This document shows positions 1,675-40,490 of a DNA stretch of 41,955 nt, piece after piece. The position numbers and the translations under genes were made by a program. The notes under the pieces were generated by a model. It ran no database searches and was not told the origin of the DNA. It was given only the letters and a program-made list of their open reading frames with translations. The stretch comes from a virus. Numbering within the stretch: the stretch's first letter is position 1; every line of letters begins with the position of its first letter. The stretch spans positions 1-41,955 of IMG/VR virus record IMGVR_UViG_3300010397_000028; one strand, written 5' to 3'.

Positions 1675-2343
1675 ATGTCAATACAAGTTTTTAATTATGA
1701 AGGCTATCAGATCCAGTTTGATGAGATCAACGGCGTACTGATGGCGAACGCAACTCTTATGGCAGACGCTTTTAATAAAAGGCCTGGGGACATTTTCAAG
1801 ACAATCACATGGCAGGAGTTTGAAACTGCCTTGTGTGTAGACTCAAATCTACGCTTGGAAGATATTCGAAGCGTTAAAAACGGCGAAAAAGGGGGTTCTT
1901 GGATTCATCAGGAGCTTGTGGTAGAGTTCGCCCGCAGGCTAAACCCAAAGTTTGCTCTATGGTGCAACCGGAAAATTGCGGAGCTTATGCGCACTGGCAA
2001 GACAGAGATTGCAAAGCCTTTGTCCGCCGCCGAGGCCCTGCTCCAAAACGTGCAGCTGCTTGTTGCCCAGGAGCAGCGTTTAAATGCTGTTGAGGAGAAG
2101 GTAAAGCAGATTGAAGCCAAGGCCATTACAAGCCCCACGGATTATTTCACGATCGCCGGGTACTCGTCACTTAGGGGCATCAAGATAGATGCGCCTGGAG
2201 CCGCCAGGCTTGGTAAGAAGGCGAGTTCTATTTGCAATGCAAATGGATACCTCATGGGTAAGGTAAGCGATCCTCGGTTCGGCACGGTAAAGACATATCC
2301 GGTAGAGGCGCTGGATTTGGCATTTTCTGATACTGTAAAATAA
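1675..2343 (+). CDS. KilA-N domain protein, phage antirepressor type
   Basis: The 222-residue protein begins with a KilA-N DNA-binding domain (about residues 1-110), recognised by the opening VFNYEGYQIQF-type beta strands, the ANATLMADAF segment and the GGSWIHQELVVEFARRLNPK segment. A helical, probably coiled-coil linker follows (about 118-150). The C-terminal ~70 residues form a separate small domain with a helix-turn-helix-like run, as in several phage antirepressors. Such proteins usually relieve repression or switch phage development. It stands alone between its own promoter with leader hairpins and a terminator, so it is regulated apart from both main operons. The ATG at 1675 is the first in frame after the leader hairpin. 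Its molecular target cannot be read from sequence. Confidence 0.85.
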   Translation: MSIQVFNYEGYQIQFDEINGVLMANATLMADAFNKRPGDIFKTITWQEFETALCVDSNLRLEDIRSVKNGEKGGSWIHQELVVEFARRLNPKFALWCNRKIAELMRTGKTEIAKPLSAAEALLQNVQLLVAQEQRLNAVEEKVKQIEAKAITSPTDYFTIAGYSSLRGIKIDAPGAARLGKKASSICNANGYLMGKVSDPRFGTVKTYPVEALDLAFSDTVK

Positions 2344-24354: not shown

Positions 24355-25050
24355 CTAAATGTCGGTCCTTTCAAATCTGGACATTTCCGGGAAAGTTTCG
24401 GATAAAAACCGTGTTACTGAGGCTTTTATGTGGGGGAATGTGGAGAATATCTTTACGTCGGGCACGGGTGGCGCGTTGATCTTCTGGTCTCGGAATGGCT
24501 CTCCGTCGAGTTGTAGGCTGTTGGCGTATAGGCTTTTGATGATGTATCCTTCTCCGGACCAGCCTGGCGCCGCGGCGACCTGATCTAGGAAAAGCGCCTT
24601 ATTATAGAGTATTGGCGTGTGTACGTCGAAGTACTTTATGGGCAAATCCTTTGATTTCAGGTAATCCAGCGTGCTTTTAGCCCGTTTCCCGTATCCATCG
24701 AGTCCGCGGAGCCGGCAGTATGTTGCGAGATCCCCCTGATAGAATGCGGGGAAATGTTCCACGTGGAACGGTGATATCAGGAAATGGTCGTCGTTGAAGA
24801 ATAGGAAATCCTCGGAAATCTCAGATTGACGGCACGCCCCGGCCACTTTCAGCATTATATTATGGTCTGGAGAGAGTCGCGGATCGTCGGATAATGGGAC
24901 CCAGGATATGTTTTGCAGCCAATCCGGGCGCTCGCCTACGATTACAACCTTTCCGAATCCGGTCAAATACTTTTCGATCGACCGCAGGCTGAACCGAAGC
25001 TCGATATCCTTCATTCTGGAACCCTTCCCAAGGGCATATACTATGTCCAT
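24355..25050 (-). CDS. Stealth-like sugar-phosphate transferase
   Basis: The 231-residue protein has short matches to the conserved regions of the Stealth (capsular polysaccharide phosphotransferase) family: IVYALGKGSR near the N-terminus in place of the usual VYTWVDGSD, ELRFSLRSIEKY (about 17-28), then FFNDDHFLI (about 83-91) as the CR2 NDD motif, and HTPILYNKALF as the CR3-like segment. The usual first Asp motif is altered, so activity is uncertain. Stealth enzymes transfer hexose-1-phosphate to glycans. It closes a run of glycan-related genes located directly before the terminase genes. Confidence 0.72.
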   Translation of the reverse strand: MDIVYALGKGSRMKDIELRFSLRSIEKYLTGFGKVVIVGERPDWLQNISWVPLSDDPRLSPDHNIMLKVAGACRQSEISEDFLFFNDDHFLISPFHVEHFPAFYQGDLATYCRLRGLDGYGKRAKSTLDYLKSKDLPIKYFDVHTPILYNKALFLDQVAAAPGWSGEGYIIKSLYANSLQLDGEPFRDQKINAPPVPDVKIFSTFPHIKASVTRFLSETFPEMSRFERTDI

Positions 25051-25051
25051 A

Positions 25052-25294
25052 TCAGTTGTCCCCGTCGATTCGTCCGACTACCCAGGCACTCAGGAGCCCG
25101 ATTCCGATCAGCGGCAGGTAATTGTTCTTCGGCTTCTCCTTTTTATGGTCGGCTTTATCCTTCATTCGGGCCTGTTTCGCTTGAATGTTTGGTGAGCATG
25201 AGCTGGATAGGATTGCGATTATTATCCATCCGATGATTACTGCCGAGGTGATCGGGTCGATTACACGGCCTCCCCTGTTCCATCCCTTCTTCAT
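25052..25294 (-). CDS. Small two-helix membrane protein
   Basis: The 80-residue protein has a basic N-terminus, a hydrophobic helix (about 15-30) ending in SSSC, a very basic central loop (Lys-rich, about 38-57) and a second hydrophobic helix (about 59-74). The Cys after the first helix is lipobox-like but the spacing from Leu is off. It could anchor glycan-modifying enzymes to the membrane or be an accessory lysis protein; neither is shown. Confidence 0.62.
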   Translation of the reverse strand: MKKGWNRGGRVIDPITSAVIIGWIIIAILSSSCSPNIQAKQARMKDKADHKKEKPKNNYLPLIGIGLLSAWVVGRIDGDN

Positions 25295-25620
25295 ATCGTT
25301 GAATTCCAGGGCCCATTCACCGCGTCAAGTATTTCCTTTATCTCAAGGGCTTTCTGCTCAGCGCTGATTCGGTCGGTCATGTGCTCATGTTCTGGTTTTA
25401 AAAACCTTCTTTTGGCATCCCTGCAAACCCGGTCAAAGTCCTCTTCTGTGATGGATTGCACGGGAAACTGGGCGTACACCCTGGCGCCGGGCAGTGGCTG
25501 CATATTGGTAAGGTGTGAGGCTACGGCCTTTCGGCTCTGGTCATCCTCAAAAATGAAGAATATCGGCTCTGTGTCCGAATCGTACCATTTACCCTCTACG
25601 AATACTTTAATTCCGCTCAT
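25291..25620 (-). CDS. Hypothetical 109-residue protein
   Basis: An N-terminal beta region (IKVFVEGKWYDSDTEPIFFIF) precedes a charged helical second half. No family is recognised. ATGA overlaps join it to the GT-B-like gene upstream and the small membrane protein downstream. Confidence 0.65.
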   Translation of the reverse strand: MSGIKVFVEGKWYDSDTEPIFFIFEDDQSRKAVASHLTNMQPLPGARVYAQFPVQSITEEDFDRVCRDAKRRFLKPEHEHMTDRISAEQKALEIKEILDAVNGPWNSTI

Positions 25621-26399
25621 AATATTCCTGCTATTTTAAGGCCATTTCTTATTTCTAGAGCATTATCCATTGCGGGATATACGAGATTTCGGAAGTCGGG
25701 ACGCCATCGAATGCAAATCTCGTCGGCGGTATATTCCGGGAGCTTGTTCATCATGGCGCAATGATCCATGAACATTACCGGGCCCATGTAATACTCTTCG
25801 AATGCTGGCTCGGACACAACACAGCAACGATGGCTTATGGCCTCGCATATCCGGTATCCCTCCAGGGGATTTCCTGGCTTATGCTGGATGTTTATTACCA
25901 CCTTGGTACGCGCCAGAATATCCCACATTTCCTGCTCCAGCTTGTCGGTAACAATCATCAGATTGATTTTTTTGGATAGGTCATTCAGCATTTTTTCACG
26001 GTGCGGAGAGCCATCGATCCATCCGTAAAACAGGTAATCAATGTCTTTCTTTCGCTCTGGCTGAATACTCACGCCTGGGTGAACGATGGCGGTTTTCTCC
26101 ATGACCGAACATCCGTAAGAGCGAAAGTTTTTAGGAGAATAATCCCATATCGCGCGCGCGCGATCAATTACGTCGTAGTAACTGGTGGTGAACCAATGCG
26201 ATCCTTTAGGCTCGGTCTGGCAAAGGATGTAGTCTTTTGGCATCTTCTCCAGCCTCACAGCTTGGTAGATGATGTGTAAATCCTGACTCGATGGATCTAC
26301 CTTATACACCCATTCTGCGTCGTGTCCAAGCTTACCAAGCTGCTCCACCATGAGCAGCGCGGCAAACTTCACGTGTGGGCCTGAGTATACCTTAATCAT
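25617..26399 (-). CDS. GT-B-type glycosyltransferase
   Basis: The 260-residue protein looks like a short GT-B glycosyltransferase: an N-terminal KVYSGPHVKFAALLMVEQLG segment, a middle linker with DYLFYGWIDGSPHREKML, and a C-terminal nucleotide-sugar site with PLEGYRICEAISHRCCVVSE (about 178-197), in which the Glu before the Ala-Ile is the expected donor-binding residue. It should transfer a sugar from a nucleotide donor to an unknown acceptor. It is linked by ATGA overlaps within the glycan cassette. Confidence 0.75.
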   Translation of the reverse strand: MIKVYSGPHVKFAALLMVEQLGKLGHDAEWVYKVDPSSQDLHIIYQAVRLEKMPKDYILCQTEPKGSHWFTTSYYDVIDRARAIWDYSPKNFRSYGCSVMEKTAIVHPGVSIQPERKKDIDYLFYGWIDGSPHREKMLNDLSKKINLMIVTDKLEQEMWDILARTKVVINIQHKPGNPLEGYRICEAISHRCCVVSEPAFEEYYMGPVMFMDHCAMMNKLPEYTADEICIRWRPDFRNLVYPAMDNALEIRNGLKIAGIL

Positions 26400-26716
26400 A
26401 CAGCGTGGTATATCTCATTGGCCCGCATAAATACCTTCAGCCCTGTTGCGTTGTCGTATAGTTGATGTGTCACGTCACTAATATTGGGAGGTTCATGGCA
26501 TTCAATCAGGTAGTTAACCTGACAACCGGTTATTACCGATGTGCCTACATGGATAAACCAGTTCGCATGCGTGCGACCGGGCAAAAATCCGAGCACGTCC
26601 TTTGCCTCACATATATTTTTTAGCGTGCCCCATATTGCTCTATATAGCTTCCCGTCAGGAGCATAAAACCAATTTGAGCATGTGATCAAAACATTCTTTC
26701 CTAGTAATTCTTTCAT
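26396..26716 (-). CDS. Conserved phage protein of unknown function
   Basis: The 106-residue protein has an LLGKNVLITCSNWFYAPDGK opening and a TNWFIHVGTSVITGCQVNYLI-like core (here ANWFIHVG), a pattern I recognise from uncharacterised phage proteins. It is a compact beta-rich domain. Its place inside the glycan cassette does not by itself tie it to sugar metabolism. Confidence 0.65.
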   Translation of the reverse strand: MKELLGKNVLITCSNWFYAPDGKLYRAIWGTLKNICEAKDVLGFLPGRTHANWFIHVGTSVITGCQVNYLIECHEPPNISDVTHQLYDNATGLKVFMRANEIYHAV

Positions 26717-27366
26717 GGTCTAAAATTTATCGATCTCCTATTATAACCTATGTGCCTGATAGATGAATCAACCAATGACACAGCCTTATAGTTGAATAGC
26801 GCGCTATGCTTCGCCTGATCGATCTCGTCACGGTGCTCGATAAGTCCATTGGGGAACATGCGCCGAATATCACTCATGCGCCTGAGAGCTGGATTCAATG
26901 AGTATCCATTCCATGCTTTACGATATCCGTGTGTGACAGGCTTTACGCGGATGCCGCTAATAGTGATCTCTTCGCCTAGAGGATGGCCGTGGTCTGATTC
27001 GTCGCGAATCCATACCTGATGGATGTCAGAGTTATCTTCCAGGATCATCATGGACCGCTCTATAAAACCCGGATTACTGTGAAATAGCCAATCGCTCTCC
27101 AGATTCATAACATATTCCGTTCTCACCTTCGAAAGCAGAAAGTCCAGCGATGCGGCATATCCTATTGTTCGTCCTGAGAAATACCATTTCGCTTCAAGGA
27201 AACGGTAATCTCGCATAATGCTTTTAAATAGCGTGTCCCTTCCATCGTTGTGGATATGCATGCCGCCGGCGATAGGATATGTATTCATGGCCATGAAAGA
27301 CGTGAGCGTCTTACGCAGGAGGTCCACGCGATTGTTATCGGTCACTATAACGGTTACTTCTTTCAT
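26713..27366 (-). CDS. Family 2-like (GT-A) glycosyltransferase
   Basis: The 217-residue protein begins with the Rossmann-type strand VTVIVTDNNRVDLLRKTL of family 2 enzymes. It has a TIGYAASLDFLLSKV helix (about 68-82) and the NLESDWLF segment (about 89-96) that takes the place of the metal-binding DxD motif. It would transfer a sugar from a nucleotide donor. ATGA overlaps connect it to both neighbours. Confidence 0.77.
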   Translation of the reverse strand: MKEVTVIVTDNNRVDLLRKTLTSFMAMNTYPIAGGMHIHNDGRDTLFKSIMRDYRFLEAKWYFSGRTIGYAASLDFLLSKVRTEYVMNLESDWLFHSNPGFIERSMMILEDNSDIHQVWIRDESDHGHPLGEEITISGIRVKPVTHGYRKAWNGYSLNPALRRMSDIRRMFPNGLIEHRDEIDQAKHSALFNYKAVSLVDSSIRHIGYNRRSINFRP

Positions 27367-27965
27367 ATGCGCTCAAAAACAAGTAACGTCCTGCGAAACC
27401 AGTCAGTATTATCATCAATGTTTTTCCTGGCTTCTGATGTTGCTCCTGGCAATATTTTAAATCCCCTGAACTCAATCTCGCTTATAATATATCCTTGAGA
27501 CTGACAATTTATGTGCCCGATACCTGGTTGTCCGACTTCTGCCCAGCTCATCACAAGTATGCCGGTGCAGTGCAGCGCCAGCGTATTGAGGAATGTTTGT
27601 TCTGCTGCCTTCGGGAGATGCTCTCCGACCTCCAGAGATATCACGTGCCCGCGCGTGGGTATATCCACCAGCTTGGTAAGATCTCGTATTGCAATCTGAT
27701 CGTGGAGGAAATTATTCAAAGGAAATCCCTCTACGCCAAGGCATTCAAATCCTTTTTGTGACAACGCCTTGCAATAGAATGCATTCCCACATCCGAAGTC
27801 AATAACCGGCTTTTCTGTAGTGAGGAAATTAGCAAGCCATTTGGCGAGCTTTGGACTTGATTGATGATACTTATCCGCCGTATACTGGTCCCAAATTCCT
27901 TCCGTCATGACTTTTTTTGTATTACCACAGTCTGGTGTAGGCCCTTCGTCTGGATTGCATCTCAT
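27363..27965 (-). CDS. Class I SAM-dependent methyltransferase
   Basis: The 200-residue protein has a glycine-rich motif I (VIDFGCGNAFYCKAL, about 54-68), an acidic motif II in CLGVEGFP, and a motif IV-like SLEVGEHLP. The GHINCQSQGYIISEIEFRG stretch is typical of small-molecule or sugar methyltransferases and unlike DNA methylases. Together with the neighbouring glycosyltransferases it suggests O-methylation of a sugar. A start at 27908 (MTEGIWDQY) is an alternative; the 27965 start is favoured by the ATGA overlap. Confidence 0.8.
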   Translation of the reverse strand: MRCNPDEGPTPDCGNTKKVMTEGIWDQYTADKYHQSSPKLAKWLANFLTTEKPVIDFGCGNAFYCKALSQKGFECLGVEGFPLNNFLHDQIAIRDLTKLVDIPTRGHVISLEVGEHLPKAAEQTFLNTLALHCTGILVMSWAEVGQPGIGHINCQSQGYIISEIEFRGFKILPGATSEARKNIDDNTDWFRRTLLVFERI

Positions 27966-28678
27966 ATTACTTTTATCGCGTTACGTTGTGCTTCCTGAAA
28001 TTCTCTTTTGATCTTGGATGCCGGGTAAAGGTAGTGACCACCATATCCTTTCTTTCGGTTGTCTTCGCTCAGCCTAGAAGCAAATAAGGCGTGGCGCTTG
28101 ACCATGTAATCAGCGTTAAGATACTTATAATGGAGGCATTTATACGCGTTCTCGCTGTACTTTATCTGGTATGCACTCATGACGGTAACCGGGTTCGACT
28201 TGTGGCATCCGGGATTATACATTATTTCCGCTATCTCGATCCTGTTGAAACAATATGACTTGTCGTAAGAAGGGGCACGGACGCCGTATTCGATTGTTTT
28301 AACGTCCAACGTAGGTCTCATGGCCACCATATTCCAACCTTCGAACCGCAGGATATTCGTGCCGGCGGCAGACTCTCTCAAAAGATCAGACTCGGTAATA
28401 AGGCAATGTTCGTCCATATCGACGACCAAAACCCAGTCCGTTTCGGCGTGCTTCCAAACATTGTTTTTTATATCCAAGTATTTAGAATCTGAAAGCTTCC
28501 CCCCTGTATCGTAGTCGATCACCTCGCAGCCAAGCATCAATGCGACAGCCTTCGTGTTATCATCGCTCATGTTATTGTATACGACGATTCTGCATCCTGG
28601 GAAAGCCTTTCGATAATGATCTACGAAAGACTGTATCATCACCATTTCGTTGAAAGCAATAGTGTATATCGTTATCAT
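27962..28678 (-). CDS. Glycosyltransferase of the family 2 / DUF-type GT-A fold
   Basis: The 238-residue protein opens with ITIYTIAFNEMVMIQSFVDHY, a common start for glycan-processing GT-A enzymes. It has VVYNNMSDDNT (about 32-42) for nucleotide binding and VLVVDMDEHCLI (about 83-94) with the DxD metal motif. The His/Lys/Tyr-rich C-terminal part probably binds the acceptor. It is coupled by ATGA to both neighbours. Confidence 0.78.
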   Translation of the reverse strand: MITIYTIAFNEMVMIQSFVDHYRKAFPGCRIVVYNNMSDDNTKAVALMLGCEVIDYDTGGKLSDSKYLDIKNNVWKHAETDWVLVVDMDEHCLITESDLLRESAAGTNILRFEGWNMVAMRPTLDVKTIEYGVRAPSYDKSYCFNRIEIAEIMYNPGCHKSNPVTVMSAYQIKYSENAYKCLHYKYLNADYMVKRHALFASRLSEDNRKKGYGGHYLYPASKIKREFQEAQRNAIKVI

Positions 28679-29340
28679 ATATCGACGACGTTAAGATTGT
28701 GATGTGAAACGTACTGCATCATCATGCGCTCCAATATGAACGGAATATAGTTATAAAGGCCCTGGGCTTTGACCTCTGGTACGGCGCGAGTGTATCCAGC
28801 ATCTTTACTTACCTCCTCCCACATCGGCCCCTCCAGCAGCTCAAGACATGGCTTTATCACATCGTTGATGTACGATACGTATATGTGTCTCTTGGCAACG
28901 AACTGATTCGCGGCGATGATGTGCTCAGGATCATTATTGTATTTCATACCGCAGTGATCGCAGCAGCGAATTATAAAATCACGAATACCTTTATGCCCGG
29001 CGTCAGACCAATCCATGAAATGAAGCCTACGCTTATTGAAACGATAGAAGTTATAAACATCTGGCTTTGACAGGCGATTACGATGAATGTAATTCATGAC
29101 CAAGGCCTTCGTAAGTCCAGTCTTTTGTGGGAACTTCCAGGAGAAAATGCCTACTAAATCATCAGGATCTCCATTGCTTAAAATGGTATCGCTGATATGA
29201 ATCATAGGGTTGTTTTCGAACCTCCATAGTTTTTCAGTTGCTTCATTCCGGAATTGGATGTACTCGGTGGTCTTATCATCATAGACAATCCCATATATGA
29301 ATATTGAACGACCTGGCGCGGTAACTGGAACTCTAGCCAT
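28675..29340 (-). CDS. Putative glycosyltransferase, DUF4422-like
   Basis: With the ATG at 29340 the product has 221 residues. A NQFVAKRHIYVSYINDVIKP segment (about 144-163) and a late YIPFILERMMMQYV segment resemble the conserved second half of DUF4422-type glycosyltransferases (an NMFIM...-like helix and an ERL-type helix), while the N-terminal RSIFIYGIVYDDKT strand is compatible with a GT-A fold. The match is weak. The start at 29340 overlaps the upstream stop by 8 bases; a start at 29388 would overlap by 56. Confidence 0.55.
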   Translation of the reverse strand: MARVPVTAPGRSIFIYGIVYDDKTTEYIQFRNEATEKLWRFENNPMIHISDTILSNGDPDDLVGIFSWKFPQKTGLTKALVMNYIHRNRLSKPDVYNFYRFNKRRLHFMDWSDAGHKGIRDFIIRCCDHCGMKYNNDPEHIIAANQFVAKRHIYVSYINDVIKPCLELLEGPMWEEVSKDAGYTRAVPEVKAQGLYNYIPFILERMMMQYVSHHNLNVVDI

Positions 29341-29533
29341 CCTGAAGACCTTTTGAAATTTCCTGTATTGCTTTGCCATCCGATTCATCAGTCGGCATCG
29401 CCGCGATCTCAGCTTCCACGACCTTGAGGCGTTTTTTAATCCAGTACGCGGCGGTAGTAGCGGCCTCGGCTTCTTTCTGTTTTGCGAGGATCTTTGCTTC
29501 GAGTTCTTGTTTTTCTTTGAGTAGTTCTTCCAT
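29333..29533 (-). CDS. 66-residue coiled-coil protein
   Basis: The product is nearly all charged helix (KEKQELEAKILAKQKEAEAA then KKRLKVVEAEIAAM), a clear coiled-coil pattern broken by an Ala/Tyr/Trp patch. No family is recognised. The start codon shares one base with the upstream stop (TAATG). Confidence 0.65.
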   Translation of the reverse strand: MEELLKEKQELEAKILAKQKEAEAATTAAYWIKKRLKVVEAEIAAMPTDESDGKAIQEISKGLQDG

Positions 29534-31058: not shown

Positions 31059-31625
<567 letters not shown>

Positions 31626-31963
31626 ATAATTAGTAATAAGGTTTCAAGTAACCGGGGTGTGATCCCCGGGGCCCATTTAACGATGGCCCAGAACGGCCGG
31701 GGCTCCTACCCAGCTTGCTTGCCTACCCCTTTCGGTGGCGCTACCTTCAATGCTTCGTGACGTCTGGCGGTGCGCCGTGCCGCCTCGGATCGAGTCCGTA
31801 GTATGCACCGCCTTCCGTCACTCGAATGGGCGAATTTAAAAGCTGTATTTTGGTCCTACGTTTCCAGCCGTCCAGTATCTCTCCGGACTGTGATCGAGCC
31901 ACTACACCCATCCAATATTTCAAACCCCAACCCAGAGCAGACCCCTCTAGCCCCTGGCCGGGG
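31626..31963. other. Structured gap between the Ala-rich and RHH genes
   Basis: This 338-base stretch has no convincing gene but several inverted repeats: CCGGGG/CCCCGG at 31652-31669, GGGCC/GGCCC arms around 31669-31690, a perfect 8-bp stem GGCGGTGC (31766-31773) with GCACCGCC (31805-31812), and TAGCCCC/GGGGCTA (31948-31966) over the RHH stop codon. It could encode a structured leftward RNA or hold regulatory or packaging sites. Confidence 0.5.
31747..31911 (-). CDS. Possible 54-residue ORF
   Basis: An ATG at 31911 opens a 54-codon basic frame ending at 31747-31749. The frame overlaps the strongest stem of the region, other frames are similarly open, and no coupling to neighbours exists. 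The coding case is weak; an RNA is at least as likely. Confidence 0.25.
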   Translation of the reverse strand: MGVVARSQSGEILDGWKRRTKIQLLNSPIRVTEGGAYYGLDPRRHGAPPDVTKH

Positions 31964-32110
31964 CTATGCTTTAATGTTCTTTCGCTTAGCGAAGTCTTCC
32001 GCCATCACCTCCAGATACCACGAAAGCGTGCGGTTTTTCTTGTCAGCCTCACGCTTAAAGGCCTCCCGCAACTCTTTGCGGATCTTGAATGATGCAGTTT
32101 CTTTCGCCAT
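31964..32110 (-). CDS. Arc/RHH-type transcriptional regulator (48 residues)
   Basis: The product has the ribbon-helix-helix layout: a basic beta strand ETASFKIRKEL (residues 4-14), helix A (REAFKREADKKN), the turn residue Arg27 with TLS, and helix B (WYLEVMAEDFAKRK). Length and spacing fit Arc/CopG-like repressors that bind DNA as dimers of dimers. The gene lies leftward of divergent promoters, each overlapped by a paired GTATAC site, and its own promoter ends only a few bases before the ATG, predicting an almost leaderless mRNA and autoregulation. It is probably the repressor of the rightward operon. The exact role (lysis-lysogeny or early-late timing) is not shown. Confidence 0.8.
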   Translation of the reverse strand: MAKETASFKIRKELREAFKREADKKNRTLSWYLEVMAEDFAKRKNIKA

Positions 32111-32118
32111 AACAGGAG

Positions 32119-32151
32119 CAAATGTATACACGGTATACGATACTTTCCAAA
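32119..32151 (-). promoter_or_regulatory. Promoter of the RHH gene
   Basis: On the - strand TTTG (32151-32148) is followed after 21 bases by TACATTTG (32126-32119), an exact Bacteroidota-type match. Only eight bases separate the -7 box from the ATG at 32110, so the transcript should start within about 5 bases of the start codon. Confidence 0.75.
32124..32138. promoter_or_regulatory. Operator O1, paired GTATAC sites
   Basis: Two copies of the palindrome GTATAC (32124-32129 and 32133-32138) are spaced 9 bp apart. The site covers the spacer and part of the -7 box of the RHH promoter, so a protein bound here would block it. The same arrangement recurs at 32215-32229. Confidence 0.7.
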
Positions 32152-32202
32152 TAATGTTTCATAAATATTTTTTCAATACCCGAAAATAAATATGAACAAA
32201 AG

Positions 32203-32234
32203 TTTGCGCGGAACGTATACGTCGTATATCTTTG
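32203..32234 (+). promoter_or_regulatory. Main rightward (early) promoter
   Basis: TTTG at 32203-32206, a 20-base spacer and TATCTTTG at 32227-32234 match the Bacteroidota promoter pattern exactly. The first gene starts at 32257, giving a leader of about 15-20 bases. Operator O2 overlaps the spacer and -7 box. Confidence 0.78.
32215..32229. promoter_or_regulatory. Operator O2, paired GTATAC/GTATAT sites
   Basis: GTATAC (32215-32220) and GTATAT (32224-32229) repeat with the same 9-bp spacing as O1 and lie at the same place relative to the -7 box of the rightward promoter. The repressor candidate is the adjacent RHH protein. Confidence 0.7.
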
Positions 32235-32256
32235 TACTCAACAAAACGAAAGCAAT

Positions 32257-32352
32257 ATGAAATACTACATCAAATACTACCTCCGCCAGGATCTCAGCGC
32301 TTTAGTTGCGGGCTTCTTCTTCGTCGTCCTGATCTTATCGTTCACATTATGA
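32257..32352 (+). CDS. 31-residue membrane peptide
   Basis: This is the first open frame after the rightward promoter. It has a Lys/Tyr/Arg-rich N-terminus (KYYIKYYLRQDL) and then one hydrophobic helix (about residues 14-31). The TGA overlaps the ATG of the next peptide gene. Too short for any family call; coupling and position support translation. Confidence 0.55.
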   Translation: MKYYIKYYLRQDLSALVAGFFFVVLILSFTL

Positions 32353-39831: not shown

Positions 39832-40314
39832 ATGAAAGAACTGAAAGGCTATATCCACCTGTACATCGGATGCAATGTATTCGATGAAAACAATGATATA
39901 TGGGTACTTGCAGGATTCACTGAATCAGAAGTTGAGCCAGGAAAGTATATAGCTATTTGTAAGCTAAAACCACCATATCATAAACAGGTATTTGGTGAGC
40001 TATATACCGATCAGGTAAAGCTCATCCTCCGTCCGCTGGAGTCGATTACTAAAGAAGAAATTCGGGAGGTAATACAGTATGATAAATTGAAAGATGAATA
40101 CAAAACGATAGAGTACTCATTTGATGGGATACTGAAAACAATTTTTGTCGACTACTCAGTGGAGTCAGAAGATGGCGGAGTATTTCATAATAGTTGGGAG
40201 TTGTGCCTTTTAAACTGCCACGCTGATGATTTCAGATGGGTATTATCGAAAGGATTCGACATATTCGGTCTGAAAGAAGCAGGACTCGCGGTGTACGAAA
40301 ATGATAAGGCATGA
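39832..40314 (+). CDS. Hypothetical 160-residue protein
   Basis: The product begins MKELKGYIHLYIGCNVF and is mostly beta in its first half, helical later. It resembles uncharacterised Bacteroidota phage and plasmid proteins with a HLYxGC opening. Having its own, apparently leaderless, promoter inside an otherwise polycistronic block sets it apart. Confidence 0.68.
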   Translation: MKELKGYIHLYIGCNVFDENNDIWVLAGFTESEVEPGKYIAICKLKPPYHKQVFGELYTDQVKLILRPLESITKEEIREVIQYDKLKDEYKTIEYSFDGILKTIFVDYSVESEDGGVFHNSWELCLLNCHADDFRWVLSKGFDIFGLKEAGLAVYENDKA

Positions 40315-40490
40315 AGAAAGTAAAGCAATACACGTTCGCAGAGTTCGCGAATAAAATCGGAGTTTCTCGGGATACGATTTACCGGTGGTATAACACAAAG
40401 TACTTGCGCGGTAGATTCAAGATGTACGACGCGGAGGTCGTGGAGGTCGCGGGAAAGAAGTTCGTTCGGGTAGAAACGAAAACGAGGTGA
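40311..40490 (+). CDS. Small HTH protein, MerR/excisionase-like
   Basis: The 59-residue product from ATG 40311 has the winged HTH pattern FAEFANKIGVSRDTIYRWYN (about 9-28) and a basic wing. MerR-like folds of this size are common in excisionases and small regulators. No integrase is present in the window. It overlaps the preceding stop by ATGA. Confidence 0.65.
   Translation: MKKVKQYTFAEFANKIGVSRDTIYRWYNTKYLRGRFKMYDAEVVEVAGKKFVRVETKTR

Follow-up and report, generated by a model that had tools for sequence, protein, structure and literature searches.

Viral repressors of the RHH family

RHH repressors of early viral genes are known from phage P22 (PMC2629481) and from archaeal viruses (PMC5569661). 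Arc (53 aa) and Mnt of the P22 immunity I region are small phage RHH repressors that act on themselves and on a neighbouring phage gene (PMC2629481, PMC4803016). However, that region lies in the P22 late operon, where it controls an antirepressor gene. F55 of the archaeal virus SSV1 is an RHH repressor acting on repeats at early promoters and at its own, and AvtR of AFV6 is an RHH regulator that binds repeats between two adjacent promoters (PMC5569661); both work at archaeal TATA/BRE promoters, and F55 maintains lysogeny. RelB and other RHH antitoxins bind as dimers to adjacent 6-bp repeats, and the spacing of the half-sites is critical for repression (PMC2812701). CopG of pMV158 is an RHH repressor of about 45 aa with no extra domain, devoted to plasmid copy control. 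In the lambda-type CI/Cro region, divergent promoters carry repeated operators, and repressor and operators are exchanged together between relatives in an immunity-like way.

The locus described here shares traits with each of these systems and matches none of them. It lies in the window, by which we mean the whole stretch of DNA analysed: 41,955 nucleotides (IMGVR_UViG_3300010397_000028), a complete circular virus record of 42 kb with a 123-bp terminal repeat. Unlike the P22 region, it faces an early replication and recombination operon, uses Bacteroidota promoters and encodes a protein without a detectable sequence match to a solved structure. In contrast to SSV1 and lambda, no integrase was found in the window, and the HTH proteins and several operators per promoter of the CI/Cro arrangement have no equivalent in this switch. 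Unlike the antitoxins, the protein has no recognizable toxin co-repressor gene beside it and is predicted to control two divergent promoters. We propose, with a probability of about 0.78, that a 48-residue RHH repressor shuts both promoters through paired operators and would thereby serve as an autoregulated brake on early genes. The kind is already known (P22 Arc/Mnt, SSV1 F55); what is new is this member and its immunity-like diversification. The sequence-only reading had called such a switch little described. That is true of Bacteroidota phages, as our literature search found no described RHH repressor in this phage group, and untrue in general, given P22 (PMC2629481) and the archaeal viruses (PMC5569661).

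Two divergent promoters carry the same paired site

The features of the locus are as follows.
31964 to 32110, minus strand: repressor candidate gene, 48 residues, stop codon included in the coordinates (MAKETASFKIRKELREAFKREADKKNRTLSWYLEVMAEDFAKRKNIKA)
32119 to 32150, minus strand: repressor-gene promoter, with -33 TTG at 32148-32150, a 21-bp spacer and -7 box TACATTTG at 32119-32126
32124 to 32138, no strand: repressor-promoter operator, GTATAC ACG GTATAC on the plus strand, with a counterpart in the sister phage
32204 to 32234, plus strand: early rightward promoter, with -33 TTG at 32204-32206, a 20-bp spacer and -7 box TATCTTTG at 32227-32234
32215 to 32229, no strand: early-promoter operator, GTATAC GTC GTATAT
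32257 to 32352, plus strand: first short early-operon gene, with a membrane-like product of 31 aa and 74% identity to its sister-phage counterpart
33410 to 34928, plus strand: early-operon genes for a 212-aa protein (PHROG 15333) and a PD-(D/E)XK exonuclease (DUF3799 / exonuclease VIII PHROG)

The promoters are of the Bacteroidota type. In Flavobacterium psychrophilum the sigma-A -7 box, TAnnTTTG, has been mapped to -12 to -5 (PMC9723704), and from that box position we predict transcript starts at 32114 for the repressor gene (about 4 nt before its ATG) and at 32239 for the early operon (a leader of about 18 nt). A sigma-70 promoter scan found nothing, as expected for such promoters. The host is likely to be a member of the Bacteroidota, because the large terminase matches those of Flavobacterium and Bacteroides phages. 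The early operon extends from the 31-aa gene to the replication and recombination genes. It also encodes a 59-aa excisionase/MerR-like HTH protein (40311-40490, plus strand) in a region conserved at 91% in G012, 52% in L106 and 50% in G016.

The paired site is confined to this switch. The genome has exactly two copies of GTATAC-N3-GTATA(C/T), at 32124-32138 and 32215-32229, as had been noted from the sequence; 0.01 such sites are expected (mean of 100 dinucleotide shuffles). The lone copies of GTATAC noted at the same time number 13, against 5.7 expected. A motif-blind test of the 146-bp intergenic region admitted every palindromic hexamer and gaps from 0 to 12; 6 of 3,000 shuffles reached two paired sites, the number found in the real sequence. 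TTG-N19..22-TAnnTTTG matches six times in the window genome, and only these two promoters carry the pair.

The two operators also sit in the same place. The repressor-promoter operator is made of two palindromic half-sites at a 9-bp step and overlaps the -7 box and spacer. Each operator ends one base before the TTTG of its TAnnTTTG box, with TTG 21 or 20 bp upstream, and the shared register to the -7 box is plain when the sites are read along each promoter (GTATACCGTGTATACATTTG and GTATACGTCGTATATCTTTG); their starts lie 91 bp apart. Could the repeats instead be a promoter element, such as an extended -7, or simply chance? They overlap the -7 box and are AT-rich, as Bacteroidota promoters are. 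However, they are missing from other promoters of these phages, including two further promoters common to the window and its sister phage (window 1426-1455 and 36966-36995), and the shuffles predict next to none. We regard this explanation as very improbable.

The repressor candidate

The 48-codon ORF on the minus strand faces away from the rightward early operon, as described. Profile searches match its product to Pfam RHH_5 (E=0.0029) and to PHROG 582, 'Arc-like repressor' (E=0.014), both below the curated cut-offs. The evidence for a putative RHH protein is thus weak but consistent (profile matches at E 0.003-0.02), and the earlier label Arc-like is upheld as far as these sub-threshold matches carry it. 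Profile search with the protein matched no RHH protein among solved structures (PDB), and direct searches of viral contigs, genomes, phages and plasmids found no close relative.

Structure prediction gave helices. An AlphaFold2 monomer from the single sequence is one long helix (pLDDT 87); from six sequences it is a helix-loop-helix of low confidence (pLDDT 66). Folding the protein had been suggested as a check on the RHH assignment; the monomers never form a strand and are uninformative on this point. CopG, Arc and similar RHH proteins are obligate dimers, whose strand forms between the chains (PMC4803016). An all-helical monomer is no fair refutation of an RHH fold, because the strand arises only in the dimer; a monomer-only prediction is a weak test. 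At the expected start of helix 2, S30 (T28-x-S30) is invariant in all four aligned proteins. A Ser/Thr at this position contacts the DNA backbone in RHH proteins (PMC2812701). The DNA has an operator trait of RHH repressors as well, with adjacent short half-sites on the protein's own promoter at a step of 9 bp in the window and 10 bp in the sister phage.

Similar paired hexamers are used by autoregulating RHH antitoxins, and relatives of the protein match CcdA and TacA1 models, so that it might be the antitoxin (ParD/CcdA/RelB type) of a toxin-antitoxin pair. However, no recognizable toxin gene lies downstream: conserved non-coding DNA takes up the next 340 nt, and the gene beyond it (31059-31625) belongs to PHROG 18326 of unknown function. 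Moreover, 48 aa leave no room for a toxin-neutralizing tail. We give the antitoxin interpretation hardly any weight.

The surrounding DNA has features of its own. The non-coding DNA of about 340 nt that separates the repressor gene from the late genes (window 31626-31966, minus strand; sister contig L131 2924-3290) alternates between long blocks sharing 95-100% identity with the sister and stems that vary; its fold z-score is -2.5. It matched neither an Rfam family nor any phage record. It is a candidate structured RNA that may serve the late operon as a leader or antitermination element. The PHROG 18326 protein (188 aa, minus strand) carries a long Ala/Asp/Tyr-rich repeat (AADAAAADAADAAD...). 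Between terminase and switch (24355-29388, minus strand) lies a cluster of putative glycosyltransferases and a putative methyltransferase, so judged by eye, whose identity to the sister varies strongly (54-97%).

A sister phage with a different protein and different sites

The strongest evidence for a dedicated phage regulator comes from a sister phage, G012 (contig L131, IMGVR_UViG_3300005466_000060), reached through its terminase. The two phages are close relatives (terminase 96% identical, terminase and portal 96-97%, tail-end/lysis region 99% at the DNA level), and the early region of G012 is a mosaic relative to that of the window. It also encodes a divergent 48-aa protein.
L131 2777 to 2923: divergent 48-aa gene in the same place as in the window (MERERITCVCGPRLKKAYEKAAKKAEKTLSQYVAQVLQEHAELKGIKE), product 29-34% identical

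The sister protein matches RHH families (TacA1, E=0.011; NikA-like, E=0.026), again below the curated cut-offs. BLASTP aligns no part of the two 48-aa proteins, and their probable homology is suggested by length, place and a TLS motif.

Both operators have changed together. The G012 promoters, TTG-N20-TATCTTTG (early) and TTG-N21-TATCTTTG (repressor), have the same spacers as those of the window. Directly before CTTTG, each carries ATATAYGTTCRTATAT, which has no further exact copy in the 27 kb. Both G012 promoters have their half-sites at a 10-bp step, and both window promoters at a 9-bp step. The operators are nevertheless 91 bp apart, start to start, in the two phages alike, with diverged sequence in between.

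The matching change of sequence and spacing at both promoters implies one shared trans-acting phage factor. Such a concerted change would not be expected from independent drift, from a host factor or from a sigma-factor element under the same host polymerase. It is conceivable that the paired site is bound by something else, either a host regulator or a different early phage protein, and that the RHH gene is a mere neighbour. Binding by the RHH protein is a prediction from sequence, and the early operon does encode the small HTH protein at 40311-40490. However, the sites changed jointly between the sisters, and the factor must therefore be phage-encoded and differ between the phages; the region of the HTH protein is 91% identical between them, against 29-34% for the RHH protein. 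We consider a separate factor improbable. The divergent RHH protein is the best candidate for the shared factor, given where its gene lies, the family that it matches and the way it has diverged along with the sites. The proposal in the sequence-only reading that one protein could shut both transcripts is well supported in that both operators co-vary with the putative repressor gene. This natural case, in which a protein varies together with both the sequence and the spacing of its putative operators, is unusually clean.

The pattern in other phages and genomes

A similar arrangement is found in unrelated phages. GTATAC-N3-GTATA-NN-TTTG matched 103 times in viral contigs, and most matches look like chance or coding sequence. 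One unrelated group (L008, L014, L024, L042, L056 and L088) has GTATAC-N3-GTATAC in the same register at early promoters with a -33 TTTG; in L115/L042 it occurs twice, on two tandem promoters. The operon of this group encodes a 71-aa CcdA-like protein about 740-860 bp downstream (PF07362, sub-threshold E=0.0044 and 0.019). Independent support comes from the -33 box and the small RHH-like protein alone, because the -7 register sat in the search pattern. Across 85k cellular genomes, the full promoter-plus-operator pattern matched 6 times, no more often than chance would give, and these matches too look like chance or coding sequence.

We presumed that GTATAC was a CcdA-type recognition sequence, shared with the F-plasmid ccd promoter; this idea was dropped, as GTATAC is absent from three ccd promoter regions. 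Around their matches, L041, L051 and L055 have a cluster of many GTGTATAC repeats that spans about 400 bp and may be a partition or iteron-type array. A relative of the window phage, L106 (early proteins 65-86% identical), has at 320-440 a divergent gene of another kind, with a 58-aa product that belongs to no family, and an inverted repeat of different sequence, TACAATAAAATTGTA, adjoining the -7 box. These may possibly form another exchangeable switch module.

Early shut-off or lysogeny

We propose the following mechanism. Host RNA polymerase would fire both promoters after infection. The repressor would be translated from a nearly leaderless mRNA (predicted leader, from the box position, about 4 nt in the window and 1 nt in G012) and would then accumulate. 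It would bind as paired dimers to each of the two operator copies, one per divergent promoter. With the operators overlapping the -7 box and spacer, polymerase would be blocked at the early operon and at the repressor's own gene. The outcome would be a brake on early transcription with negative autoregulation, as for P22 Arc.

Might the protein instead be a lysogeny (immunity) repressor, a substitute for CI in a temperate phage that persists without a recognized integrase, for example as a plasmid? The divergent switch architecture would suit such a role. So would the sister comparison, in which the repressor/operator pair differs while structural and lysis genes are 96-100% identical, a pattern that resembles heteroimmunity. 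The phage also encodes a KilA-N protein (1675-2343, plus strand), and this domain is often found in phage regulators or antirepressors. Finally, F55 of SSV1 is an RHH protein with such a role (PMC5569661). However, searches of the complete circular window and of L106 for tyrosine (PF00589) and serine (PF00239) recombinases found none, and there was no significant DNA match in phage records. HTH_3 matches in the window are sub-threshold, and none lies at the switch. The description of the locus as standing in place of a CI/Cro pair, which implies a lysogeny switch, is not borne out by these searches. Autoregulated early shut-off is likelier than lysogeny, because the searches turned up neither an integrase of the tyrosine or serine type nor an HTH_3 repressor above the cut-off; we consider a lysogeny repressor unlikely.

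The KilA-N gene, 99.5% identical in the sister, lies downstream of the operator-free conserved promoter at 1426-1455. Its product is a possible antirepressor or late regulator.

We also offer a more speculative idea, which we think somewhat likelier to be wrong than right. The 48-aa RHH protein and its two 15-16-bp operators may be the whole module for early control and superinfection specificity in a Bacteroidota phage family without a detectable integrase. The module would diversify as a cognate unit, shifting its half-site step by one bp at both promoters, and sisters with near-identical virions would be mutually blind to each other's repressor.

The regulation of Bacteroidota phages is poorly mapped, and here the minimal regulator would be 48 residues and two operators. 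The switch raises the question of immunity-like specificity in a phage without a detectable integrase. The sisters, moreover, are two naturally occurring variants with protein and sites altered together, and they would offer a ready way to test how the sequence and spacing of half-sites are read by RHH proteins.
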